Translations under genes and position numbers: made by a program | Notes under the pieces: generated by a model | The model's database searches: none | What the model was told of the DNA's origin: nothing | What the model saw: only the letters and a program-made list of their open reading frames with translations | Shown: piece after piece, positions 43,105 to 53,762 of the stretch | Layout of the letters: each line of letters starts with the position of its first letter | Position numbering within the stretch: position 1 is the stretch's first letter | Source: Sphingomonas bacterium | GTDB lineage: Bacteria > Pseudomonadota > Alphaproteobacteria > Sphingomonadales > Sphingomonadaceae | Length of the DNA: 64,000 nucleotides | Assembly (NCBI RefSeq): GCF_028292945.1 | Contig: NZ_JAQGLJ010000040.1 | Coordinates: 1-64,000 of the forward strand | Direction of reading: 5' to 3'

Positions 43105-43316
43105 TATCGCAGCGCGCGGCCGACGCCGCAGCGAGCGGCAAGCCGGCGCCCACGCCGCACAAGCCCGCGATGCTGTGGGGCGTCGTCGAGGTGCCGATGA
43201 TCGGACCGGTGGCGGAGCTTGGTCGGCATTCGGGCGGGGCGCGCGCGCAAACGACTAGGCCGATCGGGGGATCACCGGCGACAGGAATTGTGGTAACGGC
43301 CCCGTGGGGGGCTTTG

Positions 43317-45167
43317 ATGGCCATAGTCGTTGCGCAGGGGGAAACGCGCGCGCCGCAGTCGCTTGGCGGCCGCGACTCGCGTCCATCGGACGCAGGCTTC
43401 CGCGCGCTCGCGGCGATGATGCCGGGCCGGTGCTGGCTCGCCGATGCCGCTGGGCGCACGACCTGGACATCGCGCGCAGGCCCGCCACCGCTGCCGTGCG
43501 ACCTGCCCGGCTGGACGACCGCAATCGCGGCGTGCCGGACCTTCGAGGCGGCGCTGCGGATCGATGGCGCGGTGCGGCTGTGCCGGCTGTCGCCATTGCG
43601 CGAAACGGGCGGCGCGGTGACCGGCTGGTGCGGGCTGGAGGTCGACATCGACCACGCCCGTTGCCGCGAGCAGCTCGCCGACAGCGACGCGATGCTGGGC
43701 GCGTTCATGACGCACGCGCCGTTCGGCATGCATTTGAAAGACGCCGACGGCCGCTATCTCAAGGTCAATGACGAGCTGGCGGCGGCGATCGGACGGCCCG
43801 CCGACGAGATCGTGGGTCAGTCGCCTGCCGAACTGTTCATTACCCCCGTCGCCGAACGGATCGCGGCGATGGACGCGACGGCGGCCGCGGGCGTCGCGGT
43901 CACCGAGGAACTGCTTATCGAGCCGCGCGATCGCTACGCCTCGGTGCTCGCCGTAACCTTTCCGACGCCTGGCGGCCATGCGGTGCGCACCGGCGGCTTC
44001 ACCATCGACCTGACGCAGCGCAAGGCGGCCGAGGCGGCGCTGGAACGGTCGCGCGACGCACTGTTTCAGTCGGAGAAGATGTCGGCGCTCGGTTCGCTGC
44101 TCGCGGGCGTCAGTCACGAGCTCAACAATCCGCTGTCGATCGTCGTCGCGCAGGCGGTGATGATGGAGCGGCAGGCGGCCGGCACCGAACTGGCGGAGCG
44201 CGCGTTCAAGATCCGCAAGGCGGCCGACCGCTGCGCGCGCATCGTCCAGACCTTCCTCGCCATGGCGCGCCAGAAGACCCCGGCGCGCACGGCGGTGGAT
44301 CTGAACGCCGTCGCCAATGGCGCGATCGAACTCGCCAATTACGGGTTGCGCGCCGACGGAGTCGGAATCACGCGCGCCTTTGCGCCCGGGCTGCCGCGCA
44401 TCGCCGCCGATGGCGACCAGCTGCACCAGATCGTCACCAACCTGATCGTCAACGCGCAGCAGGCGATGGCCGGGGAGCGGTCGCTGCGCTGGCTGGAGGT
44501 GCGTACCGCGCGCGGGCCGGAAGCCAACACCGTCATCCTGGAGGTCGCGGACTCGGGTCCAGGCATTCCCGTCGAGCTGCGTCGCCGCATCTTCGAACCG
44601 TTCTACACCACGAAGCCGCAGGGCGAGGGCACGGGCGTGGGCCTGTCGTTCAGCCAGGGATTGGCGGAGGCGCATGGCGGCCACCTGACACTGGTCCCGT
44701 GCGAACGCGGCGCGACCTTTCGCCTCACCCTGCCCATCATCGAGAAGAAGGGCGCGACGCAGGTCGCGCCCGCCCCGCTCGCCTTGCCCACCGCGCGGGT
44801 CCGCCGCGCGCTGATCGTCGACGACGAGGAGGAGATCGCGGCATCGCTCGCCGATTTCCTCAGCATCGAGGGGTATGAGTGCGAGGTCGTGGTCGGCGGC
44901 GCGGCGGCGCAGGCGCGGCTCGCGGCGGGCGGGTCCTATGATCTGGTCGTCAGCGACATCAGGATGCCCGATGTCGACGGGCCCGCGCTGTACGCCTGGA
45001 TCGGCGAGCGGCGGCCGGAGCTGACGGCCTGCACCGCGTTCACCACGGGCGACACGCTGGGGGCGCATGCCGCGCGCTTTCTGGCGACCGCCAAGCGTCC
45101 GGTGCTGGAGAAGCCGTTCATGCCCGAATCGGTGCGCCACTTCCTGGCCGAGATGGCCGCGCGATGA
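43317..45167 (+). CDS. Hybrid PAS sensor histidine kinase with C-terminal receiver
   Basis: PAS-like HLKDADGRYLKVNDELAAAIGRPADEIVGQ; LAGVSHELNNPLSIV; GTGVGLSFSQGLAEAHGG; receiver RRALIVDDEEEI. Confidence 0.92.
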   Translation: MAIVVAQGETRAPQSLGGRDSRPSDAGFRALAAMMPGRCWLADAAGRTTWTSRAGPPPLPCDLPGWTTAIAACRTFEAALRIDGAVRLCRLSPLRETGGAVTGWCGLEVDIDHARCREQLADSDAMLGAFMTHAPFGMHLKDADGRYLKVNDELAAAIGRPADEIVGQSPAELFITPVAERIAAMDATAAAGVAVTEELLIEPRDRYASVLAVTFPTPGGHAVRTGGFTIDLTQRKAAEAALERSRDALFQSEKMSALGSLLAGVSHELNNPLSIVVAQAVMMERQAAGTELAERAFKIRKAADRCARIVQTFLAMARQKTPARTAVDLNAVANGAIELANYGLRADGVGITRAFAPGLPRIAADGDQLHQIVTNLIVNAQQAMAGERSLRWLEVRTARGPEANTVILEVADSGPGIPVELRRRIFEPFYTTKPQGEGTGVGLSFSQGLAEAHGGHLTLVPCERGATFRLTLPIIEKKGATQVAPAPLALPTARVRRALIVDDEEEIAASLADFLSIEGYECEVVVGGAAAQARLAAGGSYDLVVSDIRMPDVDGPALYAWIGERRPELTACTAFTTGDTLGAHAARFLATAKRPVLEKPFMPESVRHFLAEMAAR

Positions 45168-45910
45168 TTGCCGCCCGGCCGCATGTCGTGCTGGTCGACG
45201 ACGAGGAAGATCTACGGGAACCCGTCGCCGCTTACCTCTCCGAGCACGGGCTCGACGTGTCCGAAGCGGACGGCGGCCGGGCGCTGGACGCGGTGATGAC
45301 GCAGCGACCTGCGCAGCTGGTGGTCCTGGACGTATCGATGCCCGACGAGGACGGCTTCTCGATCGCGAAGCGACTGCGCGCGCGGCCCGAGCCGGTAGGC
45401 ATCATCATGCTGACCGCGCGGCGCGACGTCGTCGATCGGATCGAAGGGCTGGAGATCGGCGCCGACGACTATATCATGAAGCCGTTCGAGCCGCGCGAGC
45501 TGTTGGCGCGCATCCGCTCGGTCCTGCGCCGCATCGGCGAGCACCCCGCGACGAACGGCTCGCGGACCGCTGCGCAGGGCGATTACGCGAGCGAGTTCTG
45601 GATCCCGACCGGACGCGGGCAGATTCGGGTGCCGATCGACACGATCGAGTGGATCGAGGCCGCCAAGGACTATGCCCTGCTCCACACTGCCGATCGCGCA
45701 CACATGCTGCGCGTCACCATGGCGGCGCTCGAACGCTCGCTCAGCCCGAGCGCCATGGTCCGCGTCCACCGCTCCGCCTTCGTGAGCCCGGACGCGGTGA
45801 GGTCGATCAATCAGGTCGGCCGCAACATCACCCTGGTGCTGAGGTCGGGCACCAGCGTACGCGTCGGTCCGCAGCATGCCGACGAGGTGCGGCAGAAGCT
45901 TGGGCAGTAA
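45164..45910 (+). CDS. Response regulator with LytTR DNA-binding domain
   Basis: HVVLVDDEEDLREPVAAYLSEHG receiver; IEWIEAAKDYALLHTADRAHMLRVTMAALERSL...RVHRSAFV LytTR. Confidence 0.9.
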   Translation: MIAARPHVVLVDDEEDLREPVAAYLSEHGLDVSEADGGRALDAVMTQRPAQLVVLDVSMPDEDGFSIAKRLRARPEPVGIIMLTARRDVVDRIEGLEIGADDYIMKPFEPRELLARIRSVLRRIGEHPATNGSRTAAQGDYASEFWIPTGRGQIRVPIDTIEWIEAAKDYALLHTADRAHMLRVTMAALERSLSPSAMVRVHRSAFVSPDAVRSINQVGRNITLVLRSGTSVRVGPQHADEVRQKLGQ

Positions 45911-45996: not shown

Positions 45997-47697
45997 ATGC
46001 GCGCCCTGCTTCCGCTCCTCGCCCTCCTCCCCGCCGCTGACCTGCCCAAGAAGGGCGAACCGCCACTGACCCCGCAGACGATGCGGTCGGGTGGCGCAAT
46101 CGACCCCGAGCAGGCCAAGCTGCGCTTCGACGCGGCCGACCTTGCCTGGGAGATATTGCCGGCGACGCGGCGGCTGACCGGCGTCGCCACGCTGACCTTT
46201 ACCGCCAACGCGCCGCTGACGGTGCTGACGCTGGACCTCGACCGCAATCTGCCGGTCGACGCGGTGAGCATCGACGGCGCGCCGCTCCGACCGGGCAGCT
46301 GGAGCAATCCGGAGGGCAGGCTGATCATCCGCCTGCCTCGCCCGGTCCTGGCCGGACAGCGGGTCACCGCGCGCATCGGCTATGGCGGCGTGCCCCACGT
46401 CGCCGTCAACGCACCGTGGAACGACGGGGTAGTCTGGTCGAAAGCCCCTGCTGGGCAGACCTGGTTTGCTACCACGGCGCAGGGCTATGGCTGCGACCTG
46501 TTCTGGCCGTGCCTGGACTTCCCCACCGGCGAGCCGGCGGTGGCGACGCTGCACATCACGGTGCCACCCGGGTTGAAGGCACCCGGCAACGGCGTGCTGC
46601 TGGGCGTCGACACGCTGCCGGATGGGCGCACGCGCTGGAACTGGCGCGCGAAACAGCCCAACACCTATTCCATCGCGTTGCAGGTCGGGCCGTATGAGGA
46701 GGTGCGGGGCAGCTACGCCAGCCGCTATGGCAACACGATCCCGCTCCACTACTGGCATTTGCCGGGCAAAGGCGTGCAGGCGCAGGCACTGGTCGCCGAA
46801 TTCGCGCCGACGCTCGACTTCTTCGAGGCGCTGATCGGCCCCTACCCGTTCGGCGACGAGAAGGTCGGCGTGGTCGAGACGCCGCACAAGGGCATGGAGC
46901 ACCAGACGATCAACGCCTATGGCAACGACTATGCCAAGGCGCCCGAAGGCTTCGACTGGCTGTTCCATCATGAGTTCGGTCATGAATGGTTCGGCAATCA
47001 GCTGACCGCGTCCGATTGGGACGATTACTGGCTGCACGAAGGGTTCGGCAGCTACATGCAGCCGCTCTATGGTCGTTGGCGCGAGGGCGAGGCGCGCTAT
47101 GCGACGATGCTGGCGTCACAGCGCGACAAGATCGTCAACAAGGTGCCGATGGTGCGCGACCGACAGTTGTCGGGCGATGACGTCTACGAGACCGAGCGCG
47201 GCGGGCCCGGGCAGGACATCTACTACAAGGGCAGCTGGATCCTCCACACCCTGCGCGGGCTGATCGGCGACGCGAAGTTCTTCGATGCGACGCGGCTGCT
47301 GGTCTATGGCCGCGCCGATCCCAAGCCGGGCAACTTTGCGCCTCGCTACGGCTCTACCCGCGAGTTCCAGGCCGCGGTGCAGCGAGTTACGGGCAAGAAT
47401 TACGACTGGTTCTTCGATGCGTATCTGCGCGAGGCAGCGCTGCCCGAGCTGACCCAGGCGCGCGTGGGCGATCGGTTGAGCCTGCGCTGGCGCGTGCCGA
47501 ACAACCGGCCCTTCCCCATGCCGGTCGAGGTGCAGGTCGGTGACCGGATCGAGCGCGTCGCGATGGCGGGCGGGACGGGGCACGTAAACGTTCCGACCGG
47601 CGCACATGTCGTGGTCGATCCGTGGTCGCGCATCCTGCGCCGCTCGGTCGCGATCGAGCAGACGCAGGCATGGCGCGCGGCGCAGGTGCGGCGGTAG
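45997..47697 (+). CDS. M1 family metallopeptidase
   Basis: HHEFGHEWFGNQLTASDWDDYWLHEGFGSYM (HExxH-x18-E). Confidence 0.95.
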   Translation: MRALLPLLALLPAADLPKKGEPPLTPQTMRSGGAIDPEQAKLRFDAADLAWEILPATRRLTGVATLTFTANAPLTVLTLDLDRNLPVDAVSIDGAPLRPGSWSNPEGRLIIRLPRPVLAGQRVTARIGYGGVPHVAVNAPWNDGVVWSKAPAGQTWFATTAQGYGCDLFWPCLDFPTGEPAVATLHITVPPGLKAPGNGVLLGVDTLPDGRTRWNWRAKQPNTYSIALQVGPYEEVRGSYASRYGNTIPLHYWHLPGKGVQAQALVAEFAPTLDFFEALIGPYPFGDEKVGVVETPHKGMEHQTINAYGNDYAKAPEGFDWLFHHEFGHEWFGNQLTASDWDDYWLHEGFGSYMQPLYGRWREGEARYATMLASQRDKIVNKVPMVRDRQLSGDDVYETERGGPGQDIYYKGSWILHTLRGLIGDAKFFDATRLLVYGRADPKPGNFAPRYGSTREFQAAVQRVTGKNYDWFFDAYLREAALPELTQARVGDRLSLRWRVPNNRPFPMPVEVQVGDRIERVAMAGGTGHVNVPTGAHVVVDPWSRILRRSVAIEQTQAWRAAQVRR

Positions 47698-47798: not shown

Positions 47799-48932
47799 AT
47801 GACGATGGGTATCTGGCTGACGATCGCGCTGCTGCTCAGCCTGGGTGGCTATGCCGTTTACCTGGCCGGGCTGCGTCGCCATCTGGTCGAGCCCAACCGC
47901 GCCTCCTGGCTGATCTGGGCGACCGCCGCCGGGATCGAGGCCGCCACCTATGCCGCAGTCAATCCCGGCGCGCCCCAGGCCTGGGTGTTCGGGCTGTCGG
48001 CGGTCGCCTGCACGGTCGTGACGCTGACGATGTGGCGACGGTCGCGGTGGCGCGCGCCCAGTCCGGTCGAGGGCATATGCATCGCGGTGTCGCTCGCCGC
48101 AATCGCGTTGTGGCTCGCCTTTCACGAGACGTTCTGGGCGCACATGCTGGTCGTCGCCGCCGTCCCGATCAGCTTCTGGCCGACCTGGGTCAGCGTGCGC
48201 GAGGATCCCGCGCGCGAGCGCTCGCCCGCCTGGGGAATGTGGACGCTGGGCGATCTGGCGACGCTGATCATCGCGGCGAACAGCGGCGCGACGGGCATCC
48301 GTGAGTATGGCTATATTCTGGTCGAACTGGGCGCGCATGGCAGCGTCTGGCTGATGGTCGGCCTGCTCAGTCTAAACCCCGCGCGATCGCTGGGGCAACG
48401 GCGTGGCCCCTTTTACGTACTCGACGCCTATCGCCCCCGGCCCAACCCGTTCGCGGTCGGCGAGAGCCACCTCGGCAAGGCGGTGTTCGCGGCACGGCCG
48501 TTCGCCGACGGCGAGACGCTGCTCCGCTTCTCCGGACGCCGCGTGCGCGGCACGCCACCCGAAGCGACCGGGCGACAGGACCGCTATGTCCAGATCGGAC
48601 CCGACGAGTATCTCGGCCCATCTGGCCGGGTCGACGACCTGATCAACCATAGTTGCGATCCGAACGCTGGCTTGCGGTTCGGCGCGGGCGGCGTGTTCCT
48701 CGTGGCCCTTCGGCCGATCGCGGCAGGCGAGGAGGTGAGCTGGGACTATTCCACCACGCTCAAGGATAGCGACTGGCGCATGCCATGCGATTGCCGCGCC
48801 GCAACCTGTCGCGGCCTGATCGGTAATTTCGACACGATCCCGAGCGCGCGCCAGGCGTGGTTCGTCGAGCGAGAACTGGTCGCGCCTTACCTGCTCGAAG
48901 AACCCGCGCTGGCAGTCGTCAAGGCGGCCTAG
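47799..48932 (+). CDS. Multi-TM protein fused to a C-terminal SET domain
   Basis: About 6-7 hydrophobic segments in aa 1-195; SET motifs KAVFAARPFADGETLLRFSG, DDLINHSCDPNAGLRF, AGEEVSWDYSTTL and post-SET CDCRAATCRGLIGNF. Confidence 0.88.
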   Translation: MTMGIWLTIALLLSLGGYAVYLAGLRRHLVEPNRASWLIWATAAGIEAATYAAVNPGAPQAWVFGLSAVACTVVTLTMWRRSRWRAPSPVEGICIAVSLAAIALWLAFHETFWAHMLVVAAVPISFWPTWVSVREDPARERSPAWGMWTLGDLATLIIAANSGATGIREYGYILVELGAHGSVWLMVGLLSLNPARSLGQRRGPFYVLDAYRPRPNPFAVGESHLGKAVFAARPFADGETLLRFSGRRVRGTPPEATGRQDRYVQIGPDEYLGPSGRVDDLINHSCDPNAGLRFGAGGVFLVALRPIAAGEEVSWDYSTTLKDSDWRMPCDCRAATCRGLIGNFDTIPSARQAWFVERELVAPYLLEEPALAVVKAA

Positions 48933-49061: not shown

Positions 49062-50903
49062 TCAGGCCGCCGCGCGCATCGCGGCTTCCGCCTTCAGCGT
49101 CAGCACCGCCACCGCGCCATGACCGCGCCCGGCGCTCTCCAGGCGTAGCGATCCCTCCATCGCGGTCATCGAATTGGCGCACCAGTGCAGGCCCAGCCCG
49201 CCCGATTTGTGGCTGCGGGTCGAGAAGCCGCGTTGGAACAGTGTCTGGCCGACCTCGGCGTCGAAGCCTTCGCCATCGTCGCGGATAGCCACCTCGACCT
49301 CCCCGTCGCGCTCGGTAACGCTCACCGCAATGGTGCCGCTACCGGTGCCGCAGGCCGCGATCGCCTCCGCGGCATTGCCGAACAGATTGCCGATGACCTG
49401 GCTCAGGATCACCCGGTTGGCGAGCACCCGATGCGCGTGAGAGGGGAAGGAAAAGGCGATCGACGCCTTGTCGGAGTAACGCGCGATCGTGGCGTTGCGC
49501 GCGACGATCTCCGTCACGTCGCACGGCTCCAGTGGAGGGCGTTCGTGCGCGCTCTTCTGTTGCTGACCAATGATCTCCAGCACATGCGCCATCGCCTCGC
49601 GGCCGACTTCCAGCTCGCCCTTCATCGCCTCGCGGCTGGTCGACCAGGCGTCGACCCCGGCCGTAACGAAATTGGTCAGCTTGGCGCGACGGGCCGGCGT
49701 CAGGTCGTCGCGGGCCAGTTCGGCGATCGCCCGGTCCAGCATGGCGCGTTCGACCGGCGGCGCCTGCGCTATTCCCTGCGACAGAATGGTGGATACTGGG
49801 TTCAACGCATTGCGAACATTATGCATCACCGCGACGGCGCTTTCGGACCGACCCAGTGCGAACGATTGTACCTCGATCTGCTCGCGCAGCTCGTTAAGCT
49901 GCCGCAGCATCGCGTTGAAACTACGCCCCAACGAGCCAATCTCGTCGCGGCGGCCGTCCTCGTCCAACAAGGCCAGGCTTCCCGAACCGCGCACGCGCTG
50001 CATGTGCGTCTCGACCCGGTGGAGCGGCTTCAGGACCTGCTGGGCGATCATCCGGCGCAGCACCATAAGGACGATCAGCAGCAGCACCGTGGTGCCGGCG
50101 ACCGCCAGCAGCAGCATGCGCCGGCCGAGCAGCGACACATCGCGACGCACGTTGAAGCGTACGGACGCGACCGGCCGACCGTCCGCGCCGGCGATCGGCA
50201 CCCGAACCTCGGCGAGCGCGCGGCTCGGTGTGTCGATCGCCACCCGGCGCCCGCCCGGGGCTTCGACTCGAGCCGCCAGCCGCAGCAGGTCGGCGACCTG
50301 ACGCGAGGTGAGCGCGCGCGCCATCACCACGTGGCCGCGCGGAACTCCCGTGCCATCGGAGCGCCGCACCTGCGCCACCCCCACCGCCGCGACGGCGCCG
50401 CCGACGCGCAGGTAGAAATGTCCCGAATTGCCGTTCTTCAACGTGCGCGCGAGATCGATCCTGGCGATCGCCGCGATCAGCTGCCCCTGCAACGTCGGCA
50501 CCTCTCCCTTGGCATCCAGCCAGCGCGCGATCACCACGCGCCCGTTCGGCGCGACATAGGCCATGCCCTGCACACCCAGGTTGCTCATCGCCAGTGGCGA
50601 GAAGCTCTCCTGCTCGAACGCAGGGGTCGGCTGCGCCATATACCGATAGCTGTCGTTCCAGTCGCCATAGTCACGCACCGCGCTTTCGACCTTCGACCCG
50701 TACTCAGCGAGCACCGCCGCGGTGCGTTCGACATGCCCGTCGATCGCCTGCCGCTCCAGCGCGTTGAAATTCGGCGTTATCACGGTGGCCAGCAGGACGG
50801 TGATCCCCAACGCGCCGGCCAGTCCGGCGGCGGTCAGGATCAGGACCAGCTTCGCGCCCAGCGACGTCGGCCCACGCCAGCGCCGGCGTGTCCGAACCCG
50901 CAT
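49062..50903 (-). CDS. Sensor histidine kinase with CHASE4-like sensor and HAMP
   Basis: ESAVRDYGDWNDSYRYM CHASE4-like; HAMP; C-terminal HATPase (IRDDGEGFDAEVGQTLFQRGFSTRSHKSGGLGLHW). Confidence 0.88.
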   Translation of the reverse strand: MRVRTRRRWRGPTSLGAKLVLILTAAGLAGALGITVLLATVITPNFNALERQAIDGHVERTAAVLAEYGSKVESAVRDYGDWNDSYRYMAQPTPAFEQESFSPLAMSNLGVQGMAYVAPNGRVVIARWLDAKGEVPTLQGQLIAAIARIDLARTLKNGNSGHFYLRVGGAVAAVGVAQVRRSDGTGVPRGHVVMARALTSRQVADLLRLAARVEAPGGRRVAIDTPSRALAEVRVPIAGADGRPVASVRFNVRRDVSLLGRRMLLLAVAGTTVLLLIVLMVLRRMIAQQVLKPLHRVETHMQRVRGSGSLALLDEDGRRDEIGSLGRSFNAMLRQLNELREQIEVQSFALGRSESAVAVMHNVRNALNPVSTILSQGIAQAPPVERAMLDRAIAELARDDLTPARRAKLTNFVTAGVDAWSTSREAMKGELEVGREAMAHVLEIIGQQQKSAHERPPLEPCDVTEIVARNATIARYSDKASIAFSFPSHAHRVLANRVILSQVIGNLFGNAAEAIAACGTGSGTIAVSVTERDGEVEVAIRDDGEGFDAEVGQTLFQRGFSTRSHKSGGLGLHWCANSMTAMEGSLRLESAGRGHGAVAVLTLKAEAAMRAAA

Positions 50904-52852
50904 CAGTTATTCGTCCCGTCCAGTGCCTCCACGGCTTCGTCCTCGCCGCCCAGAAACCGCTGTTCCGCCATGGTGCGAGCAATTTCCGCCGCCACGGGGC
51001 GTGAAAAGAAATACCCCTGCAAGTGGCTGGCGCCGGCGACGCGCAGCATCTGCACCTGCGCGGCCGTCTCGACACCTTCTGCGATCACGCCCAGGCCCAG
51101 CGCGCGGCCGAGATGGATGATCGAGTGGACGATCGCCGCCGACTCACGCTCACGGCCCATGCCGTCGATGAACGAGCGATCGATCTTCAGGCAGTCGAGC
51201 GCGAACTTGCGGATGTTGTAGAGCGACGAATAGCCGGTGCCGAAATCGTCCAGCGCGATGCGAAACCCCATCTGGCGCAGCTTGTACAGCGTCTCGGCCG
51301 CGCGCTCGGCGTCGTCAAAGATCGCCGTCTCGGTGATCTCGATCTGCAGCCGCTGCGGGCTGATGCCGGCGCGCTGGACGCATTCCATGATGTAGCCGAC
51401 GAAGTTGTGGCGCCGGAACTGACGCGGCGAGAAGTTGACGGAGACATACTGACCCGGCCACGCCTTCAGCTCCTCCAGTGCCGCATGCAGCACCCAGTCG
51501 CCGAGCTGGTGGATCAGGTTCGATTCTTCCGCGATGGGGATGAACGTCGCCGGGCTGATCGGGCCGTAATCCGCGGTGTTCCAGCGCAGCAGCGCCTCGA
51601 ACCCTTCGATCTCGAGCGTGTCGCGAGACACGATCGGCTGGTAGACGAGGCTCAGCTCGCCGCGCCCGATCGCCTCGCCCAGACCGCCTTCGATCCGGCG
51701 GCGGAAGCGGATGCCTTCGTCCATGCTCTCGTCGAACAGCCGCACGACGCCGCGTCCGGCGCGCTTGGCATCGTTGAGCGCCAAGTCGGCGCGCCGCACG
51801 ACATCGATCGGGTCGCGCCCTTCGCCGCCTTCGCTGACGATCAGCCCGGCCGACGCGCCGCCCTGCACCGAGTGGCCGAACACGACGACGGTGGTGGTGA
51901 TCGCCGCGATCAGCCGGTCGCACGCCATCACGGCAGCGTTTTCACCCGGCGTGTCGAACAGGATGCCGAACTCGTCGCCGCCCAGCCGCGCGATCATCGC
52001 ACCGTCGGGCGCGGCTTCGTGCAACATGGTGCAGATCTCGCGCAGCAGCGCGTCGCCGGCGAGATGGCCCAGCGTGTCGTTGACCAGCTTGAAGCGGTCG
52101 AGGTCGATCATCGCCATCGCGAACAGCCCGGGCCGCTTGGTCCGCTCTCCGAGCGCGCGCACGAAGGCGAGCCGGTTTGGCGCGTCGGTCAGCGAATCGT
52201 GCGTCGCGATGTGGATCGCGCGGCTCTCGTTGGCGGCGAGTTCCGCGCCCTGCAGTTCGAGCTGCTCGATCTGTCGCGACAGTTGCAAGCGTGCGTCCGC
52301 CAGCATGCGATCATTGGCCCAGCGCGCGACCAATGCGGCGGCGGTCTGCTGGATCTCGGCGACCTCGAACGGCTTGGCGATATAGAAGATCTTGTCGGCC
52401 GGCCCTGCGACCTTGCTGATCTCCAGCGGCGAAAAGTCGGAAAAGCCGGTGACGATGACGATGGCGATGTCGGGATCGAGCGCGCGGATGCGCTTGGCGG
52501 TCTCGCGACCATCGATGCCCGGCGGCATGCGGATGTCGATGAATGCGACCGCGAACGGCGTGCCCGCGTCGCGCGCGCGCTCCACCTCCGCCACCGCATC
52601 GAGCCCCTGCGAGACGTGCTGGAGGTCGTAACGGGCCTCCTCCTCGACCGCCTCGGGCGTGTCGTCCCACAGGTCGGCGGCCATCGCGCCGAGCGCGTCG
52701 CCTTCGTCACTGCGCTGGCTGGCGAAGCTGCGGCGATAGCTGTCGTGCATCGCCGCTTCGTCATCGACGATCAGAATCCGGGGGAGGATGGCATCGGTAG
52801 GCAAGGCAGCTCTTCCCGTGATGGGCGAGAGTGAACCCCCGCCAAGGTTCAT
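50903..52852 (-). CDS. Receiver-GGDEF-EAL protein
   Basis: RILIVDDEAAMHDSYRRSF; MIARLGGDEFGILF; IEGFEALLRW ... ALDDFGTGYSSL. Confidence 0.93.
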   Translation of the reverse strand: MNLGGGSLSPITGRAALPTDAILPRILIVDDEAAMHDSYRRSFASQRSDEGDALGAMAADLWDDTPEAVEEEARYDLQHVSQGLDAVAEVERARDAGTPFAVAFIDIRMPPGIDGRETAKRIRALDPDIAIVIVTGFSDFSPLEISKVAGPADKIFYIAKPFEVAEIQQTAAALVARWANDRMLADARLQLSRQIEQLELQGAELAANESRAIHIATHDSLTDAPNRLAFVRALGERTKRPGLFAMAMIDLDRFKLVNDTLGHLAGDALLREICTMLHEAAPDGAMIARLGGDEFGILFDTPGENAAVMACDRLIAAITTTVVVFGHSVQGGASAGLIVSEGGEGRDPIDVVRRADLALNDAKRAGRGVVRLFDESMDEGIRFRRRIEGGLGEAIGRGELSLVYQPIVSRDTLEIEGFEALLRWNTADYGPISPATFIPIAEESNLIHQLGDWVLHAALEELKAWPGQYVSVNFSPRQFRRHNFVGYIMECVQRAGISPQRLQIEITETAIFDDAERAAETLYKLRQMGFRIALDDFGTGYSSLYNIRKFALDCLKIDRSFIDGMGRERESAAIVHSIIHLGRALGLGVIAEGVETAAQVQMLRVAGASHLQGYFFSRPVAAEIARTMAEQRFLGGEDEAVEALDGTNN

Positions 52853-52871
52853 CAACGGTAAGCCGACGCGG

Positions 52872-53762
52872 TTAAGAGGCCGTAAACGCCTGCGCGCCGA
52901 GCAGCACCGCGCCAAGTGGCCCCGCGCTCTCGCCAAGGCCCGCCGGCACGACGAACGTGTCTGCCATCGCTACCTCCGGCAGCATCGAGTACCCGGCCAG
53001 GCTCTTGTGCATCGCGGTTCGCACACGCGGCAGCAGATGCGTGGCGCCCGTCATGACGCCACCGCCCATGACCACGCGGCGCGGCACGCCCGTCAATACC
53101 AGCGCATGCAACAGCTGACCGAGCGCATGCGCGACGCCGTTCCATGCCGGATCGTCCGCCGCGCAGTTCTCCGCCTTGCACCCGGCGCGCGACGCGATCG
53201 CCGGCCCGGACGCCAGGCCTTCGACGCAGCCACCGTGGAATGGACATACTCCGATCCAGTCGTCGCCCGGCAGGCGTACGGGTCGCAGATGGCCGAGTTC
53301 CTGGTGCGTCAATCCGTCGACCGGTTTGCCACCCGCGATCAGGCCGACGCCAACCCCGGTGCCGACCGTCACATAGGCAAGGTCCGCCAGTCCCGCGGCC
53401 GCGCCCCAACGCGCCTCCGCCAGCGCCGCACCGACCACATCGGTATGGAAGCCGACCGGCACGCCATAGCGGCGTTCCCAGCGCCGACCGATGTCGGTGT
53501 GCGACCAGCCCGGCTTGGACGTGACGGTCACCTGTCCCCAATCCGCCGCATCGCGCGCAACGCCGGCTGGTCCGAAGCTGGCGACGCCGATGGCGGCGAA
53601 TCCGCGCCACCGATCGAGCACCGCCTCGATCGCAGCCAGTGTCTCGGCCGGCGCGGTCGTGGGCACCCGCACCTGTTCTTCGATCGCGTCGGGTCCGCTG
53701 GCGAGGATGGCCACGCATTTCGTCCCACCCAGTTCGACGCCCGCGATCAGGGGTTCTTGCAT
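52872..53762 (-). CDS. ROK family sugar kinase (fructokinase-like)
   Basis: IAGVELGGTKCVAILA; ELGHLRPVRLPGDDWIGVCPFHGGCVEGLASGPAI zinc-binding ROK signature. Confidence 0.9.
   Translation of the reverse strand: MQEPLIAGVELGGTKCVAILASGPDAIEEQVRVPTTAPAETLAAIEAVLDRWRGFAAIGVASFGPAGVARDAADWGQVTVTSKPGWSHTDIGRRWERRYGVPVGFHTDVVGAALAEARWGAAAGLADLAYVTVGTGVGVGLIAGGKPVDGLTHQELGHLRPVRLPGDDWIGVCPFHGGCVEGLASGPAIASRAGCKAENCAADDPAWNGVAHALGQLLHALVLTGVPRRVVMGGGVMTGATHLLPRVRTAMHKSLAGYSMLPEVAMADTFVVPAGLGESAGPLGAVLLGAQAFTAS

Follow-up and report, generated by a model that had tools for sequence, protein, structure and literature searches.

What would a bacterium do with a SET methyltransferase domain, a type of enzyme known chiefly for histone methylation, that is joined, in one reading frame, to a multi-helix membrane domain? 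The question is raised by a gene at positions 47799-48932 of the window (the whole 64,000-nucleotide stretch of Sphingomonas DNA that was analysed), which an initial annotation had read as a membrane-tethered protein lysine methyltransferase, possibly sensing a small molecule. Bacterial SET proteins have mostly been discussed as host-chromatin effectors (PMC3980110), and no description of a bacterial SET enzyme within a membrane protein, nor of a PQ-loop-like domain fused to a methyltransferase, was found in open-licence papers, which were the scope of the search (subscription journals and preprints lie outside it). The individual parts have been known before; what is new, as far as open-licence literature shows, is how they are combined, the family to which the membrane half belongs, the split gene pair and the sensory context described here. 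We propose, with a probability of roughly one half, that the product is an inner-membrane SET methyltransferase with a cytosolic catalytic domain, which would play a signalling role through lysine methylation of a partner protein. The join is real, widespread in Sphingomonadaceae and found beside signalling genes, and it puts the idea of methylation signalling from a bacterial membrane within reach of testing; since the fusion is conserved, chromosomal, carried by environmental bacteria and placed beside sensory genes, it offers a tractable route to SET methylation inside bacteria.

The fused gene and its distribution

The gene is a single open frame with an ATG at 47799 and a stop at 48930-48932, and its codon-position GC content (0.67/0.54/0.84) is typical of a genuine gene in the source genome. 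The 377-aa product is laid out as seven predicted transmembrane helices (residues 2-189), a short linker, and a SET domain (residues 218-341). AlphaFold2 modelled the whole protein with a mean pLDDT of 78 as seven long helices (2-26, 34-54, 59-80, 89-108, 111-135, 144-161, and 167-189) and a SET fold starting at residue 218; Pfam matched the SET domain and gave nothing significant across the first 200 residues. The uninterrupted frame with hydrophobic segments reported by the initial annotation is thus upheld. The features are as follows.

47799-48932, + strand: whole gene, 7-TM and SET fusion, 377 aa (Pfam, AlphaFold2; fused in 83/201 genus genomes)
47799-48365, + strand: membrane domain, residues 1-189, seven helices, PQ-loop-like 3+1+3, predicted N-out/C-in (AlphaFold2, foldseek, hhalign, positive-inside rule)
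47799-48056, + strand: first triple-helix repeat, residues 1-86, with the signature PNRASWLIW after helix 1 (duplication against the second repeat, hhalign)
48120-48383, + strand: second triple-helix repeat, residues 108-195, with FWPTWxSVxxDxxRERSPAWGxW after helix 5 (hhalign)
48366-48449, + strand: predicted cytosolic basic linker, residues 190-217, of low model confidence (AlphaFold2, charge pattern)
48450-48821, + strand: SET domain with post-SET, residues 218-341 (Pfam, PDB profile, foldseek)
48645-48665, + strand: NHSCDPN, SAM-binding/pseudoknot motif, residues 283-289 (N283, H284, C286, P288, and N289 conserved)
48741-48755, + strand: WDYST with catalytic Tyr317, residues 315-319 (W315, D316, and Y317 invariant or nearly so in 61 homologues)
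48786-48809, + strand: post-SET zinc cluster Cys330-x-Cys332-x4-Cys337, CxCxxxxC (conserved in 61 homologues)

The occurrence of the fusion is far above chance, because 83 of the 201 genomes of the same genus encode the protein in one open frame at 55-69% identity; 82 of these copies are essentially full length and the remaining one is cut by a contig end. The relatives that carry species names are Sphingomonas. Beyond the genus, two genomes of one other genus (L232 and L233) carry the fusion at 52-53% identity, and three genomes of three more genera (L234-L236) carry a diverged fusion of about 420 aa at 26-28% identity; the coordinates of this clade, all in other Sphingomonadaceae genera, are L234:3233-4501(-), L235:3403-4677(+), and L236:146-1387(+). 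Judged by dN/dS in five pairs (0.02-0.32 over both halves; 0.03-0.26 for the membrane half), both halves evolve under purifying selection, and with a mean entropy of 1.00 for the membrane half versus 0.97 for the SET half they are equally conserved. The suspicion that an assembly or annotation artefact, namely a frameshift joining two genes, created the protein could appeal to the parts being separate genes in Parcubacteria, but it is already refuted by the uninterrupted frame in the genus and in further genera: a fused frame kept in dozens of genomes is no sequencing error, the flaw on which the initial annotation had staked its own refutation.

Two irregular copies were observed. In L016 (G036:C4:143479-143655) the 5' end of the fusion gene occurs a second time in truncated form, about 2 kb from the intact copy and adjoining two partial sensor-kinase matches, which suggests either what is left of a local duplication or a misassembly. 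In Sphingomonas turrisvirgatae (L022:3941-5122) the stretch before NHSCDPN (RGVGAAVHRARPFPVRLRH) is unalignable with relatives, as if two compensating frameshifts had occurred, either genuine or through assembly error.

Fold and topology of the two halves

Modelled alone, the membrane half reached a pLDDT of 81 and a pTM of 0.77. Helices 1-3 align with helices 5-7 at an hhalign probability of 93-95% (E 4e-7 to 4e-8; reversed control 6%), and by this profile comparison the membrane half consists of a 3-helix unit duplicated internally (3+1+3), so that the two NRASWLIW / PAWGMWTLGD-like repeats first noticed by eye are a true duplication. Each half of the membrane domain also aligns with bacterial PQ-loop/SemiSWEET profiles in register over the whole unit, at a weak probability of 28-50% (reversed, at most 2%), and the PT of the second-repeat signature aligns with the PQ of PQ-loop proteins. 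In foldseek comparison with solved structures, the highest-probability and highest-TM-score matches are all PQ-loop-superfamily proteins, i.e., the KDEL receptor (7rxc, prob 0.93, TM-score 0.62; 6i6j, prob 0.82, TM-score 0.57) and cystinosin (8dke, prob 0.94, TM-score 0.59); the E-values (0.6-1.2 for 7rxc and 8dke) are non-significant by themselves. Neither PF04193 nor PF03083 rose above cut-off in the 377-aa protein (the best MtN3 E-value in the wider membrane family was 0.39), a search of genome G000 with both families gave no match, no Pfam or NCBIfam model exceeded its cut-off against the membrane family, and a direct PDB sequence search with the membrane domain returned chance matches only. 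The earlier guess of a PQ-loop/SWEET-like protein is therefore tentatively supported as a fold, by the duplication, the in-register alignment and the best structural matches, but not as membership of the Pfam PQ-loop/MtN3 families. With the PQ-loop/MtN3-like superfamily (KDEL receptor, cystinosin, SWEET; Pfam clan CL0141) the membrane half shares the seven helices in 3+1+3 order, the predicted N-out/C-in topology and a P-T/Q at the cytosolic end of helix 5; it differs in having no Pfam match above cut-off, in forming an unnamed family of its own and in being fused to an enzyme.

Among 61 homologues, positive charge is found in loops 1-2, 3-4, and 5-6 and in the C-terminal linker (mean K+R per cytosolic segment 3.0/2.6/3.1/4.3), whereas the N-terminus and loops 2-3, 4-5, and 6-7 carry hardly any (outer segments 0/0.07/0.67/1.0). 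The prediction is therefore an external N-terminus and a cytosolic SET domain; the seven modelled helices together with this charge pattern agree with the proposed tethering of a SET protein by an N-terminal membrane part. The membrane half keeps invariant polar and aromatic residues, and P32, W37, T129, and E140 are among its invariant positions.

The Pfam SET model (PF00856) matches residues 226-317 with E=1.9e-12 (48 bits against a cut-off of 22.4). The best solved relatives of this half are the KMT2/MLL and ASH1L SET domains, and BurB matches too (PDB profile, MLL1 8.6e-24; foldseek, MLL1 E=1.5e-8 with prob 1.00, BurB 7e-7). The likeness to KMT2/MLL-type SET domains extends over the SET fold, NHSCxPN, the catalytic Tyr and the post-SET zinc cysteines; those enzymes, however, are soluble or belong to chromatin complexes, whereas the SET domain of the fusion follows a seven-helix membrane domain. 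BurB (PDB 9l4t), a bacterial SET enzyme of the same fold, is a methionine S-methyltransferase that makes S-methylmethionine and contacts methionine in its pocket through the main chain (PMC12542666); it differs from the fusion in being a soluble tetramer of 172 aa encoded in a biosynthetic cluster (PMC12542666), and is about 26% identical to the SET half in the fold alignment.

Residues N283, H284, C286, P288, N289, Y317, C330, C332, and C337 are invariant or nearly so in the 61 homologues, and the SAM-site, catalytic Tyr and zinc Cys residues are also kept in the 26-28% identical fusion clade, a pattern that should be expected of an active SAM-dependent enzyme. The intact SET domain of the initial annotation, with its NHSCDPN, YST, and post-SET CxCxxxxC, was located in full and is conserved in the homologues; a loss of the SAM-binding residues, which would have spoken against it, was looked for, and the residues are present. 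At position 263, which belongs to a stretch aligned close to a Tyr of MLL1, 50 of the 61 homologues have Phe and 10 have Tyr. The SET domain alone is a conserved unit in many bacteria.

Origin of the fusion and its sensory neighbours

In two Parcubacteria loci (L023 and L024), a membrane gene is immediately followed by a SET gene on the same strand. The two genes belong to the same membrane subfamily (33-39% identity) and the same SET subfamily (45% identity) as the halves of the fusion, but they are separate and are followed by a 7TM histidine kinase gene; among about 700 Patescibacteria genomes drawn, no other split pair was found. In the trees of each half the L023/L024 genes join the Sphingomonas fusion (support 99/97 for SET and 100/99 for the membrane half), and in the membrane-half tree this clade lies among Patescibacterial stand-alone genes. 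The adjacent pair and the agreement of both trees suggest that the fusion was most likely preceded by two linked genes that passed between these phyla, in either direction. Homologues with the two parts as separate genes, which the initial annotation had linked to a sequencing-error fusion, thus do exist, but as neighbours in Parcubacteria; their adjacency argues for a working partnership. In enlarged trees the SET domain of the diverged clade pairs with L040, a SET gene of Parcubacteria (100/99), but the membrane half of that clade is placed away from the first clade. The diverged fusion may therefore be independent of the Sphingomonas one; two independent fusions, if true, would be further reason to see the two parts as working partners.

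Two genes of the window lie downstream of the fusion.

49062-50903, - strand: CHASE4-HAMP-HATPase sensor kinase, convergent with the fusion gene (Pfam)
50903-52936, - strand: REC-GGDEF-EAL response regulator, c-di-GMP turnover (Pfam; conserved in L018-L022)

The CHASE4-HAMP kinase is present in 82 of the 83 fusion-bearing genus genomes, a raw count that kinship inflates, and it occurs without the fusion in 41 genomes. Kinase and fusion share a contig in 69 genomes, being convergent within about 15 kb in 65 of them (within 400 bases in 38) and hundreds of kb or more apart in 4, and they lie on different contigs in 13, so adjacency is not a fixed feature; this co-occurrence is inflated by shared ancestry, and the counts are raw. 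The convergent Sphingomonas genes form no operon. The same layout of fusion and CHASE4-HAMP kinase is found in L232 and L233 (domains checked in L232), and a CHASE4-GGDEF-EAL gene is the divergently transcribed neighbour of both diverged fusions whose flanks could be read. The 7TM histidine kinases that follow the Parcubacteria pairs are 52% identical to each other, and in L040 a lone SET gene without a membrane partner is followed by a kinase of the same family. With CHASE4 genes adjoining in Sphingomonadaceae and 7TM kinases in Parcubacteria, sensor proteins recur next to related SET genes in both lineages.

The 7TM kinases downstream of SET (L023:5376-7001, L024:5279-6886, and L040:4654-6269, the last split by a frameshift) share the conserved start CxWDxAxFLIxSxN...PLIYYSH. 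Stand-alone SET genes of Burkholderiales have a histidine kinase gene about 1-3.5 kb away in L037, L068, L069, L079, L087, and L092-L094. Upstream of the fusion, a PAS hybrid histidine kinase gene overlaps a LytTR response regulator gene (window positions 43170-45910, + strand), a pair that does not adjoin the fusion in L018-L021, and an M1-type peptidase gene (45997-47697) lies between this pair and the fusion.

Proposed role and relatives of the membrane half

A signalling role is favoured because the gene context is sensory. In the mechanism we propose, the PQ-loop-like seven-helix domain (N-out/C-in) would keep a SET domain with intact catalytic residues at the cytosolic side of the membrane, would bind or carry a small solute, and would thereby position or switch, perhaps gate, the SET domain, which would methylate a lysine of a membrane-proximal signalling protein. 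The first candidate partner is the genetically linked CHASE4 sensor/c-di-GMP module. A bolder and rather doubtful version is that a solute sensor of PQ-loop fold and a SET domain make up a receptor-methyltransferase that writes lysine methylation on CHASE4 sensors or on the c-di-GMP output, i.e., a methylation-based tuning of c-di-GMP/two-component signalling unrelated to CheR, which would have begun as a gene pair exchanged with Parcubacteria.

The main rival is a transporter-coupled small-molecule methyltransferase, in which a metabolite is methylated by the SET domain, the PQ-loop-like domain serving either to bring that substrate in or to pass the product out. It takes this place because BurB, which is among both the fold and the sequence matches, acts on methionine (PMC12542666) and PQ-loop proteins mostly carry sugars or amino acids (PMC5972207); the prevalence of Phe at position 263, near the Tyr of the histone enzymes, fits it as well. 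We consider it possible, with the odds against it, as the SET domain resembles protein enzymes of the KMT2/ASH1L type more than it does BurB and the neighbours are signalling genes with no biosynthetic cluster. If the seven helices were an anchor and nothing else, they would localise a general SET lysine methyltransferase without sensing or transport, as might be thought from the conservation of SET alone in many bacteria and from the L040 SET-kinase pair; this is unlikely, given that the membrane half is conserved like the SET half in both entropy and dN/dS and keeps invariant polar and aromatic residues that a mere anchor would not need. A catalytically dead SET domain serving as a binding module is highly improbable in view of the SAM-site, catalytic and zinc residues conserved even in the most diverged clade.

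The signalling fusion would also offer a possible function for an unnamed family of seven-helix proteins spread over Patescibacteria and Proteobacteria. This family of about 200 aa, to which the membrane half belongs, has copies, mostly stand-alone, in 56 of 287 Patescibacteria genomes and also in some Proteobacteria, and is marked by the signatures PNxxSWLxW after helix 1 and FxPTxxKxWxxPxxExxxxW after helix 5. No SET gene was found beside the stand-alone membrane genes of either group in the flanks examined, except in L023 and L024; there were no membrane-domain relatives among viral contigs and no match in the plasmids searched. A weak match (G019:C17:49503) was dropped, as the long frame in which it lies is unrelated and has a permease-like sequence. 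The stand-alone seven-helix PQ-loop-like genes (L104-L132, L138-L155, and L237) occur in about one fifth of the sampled Patescibacteria and in some Proteobacteria.
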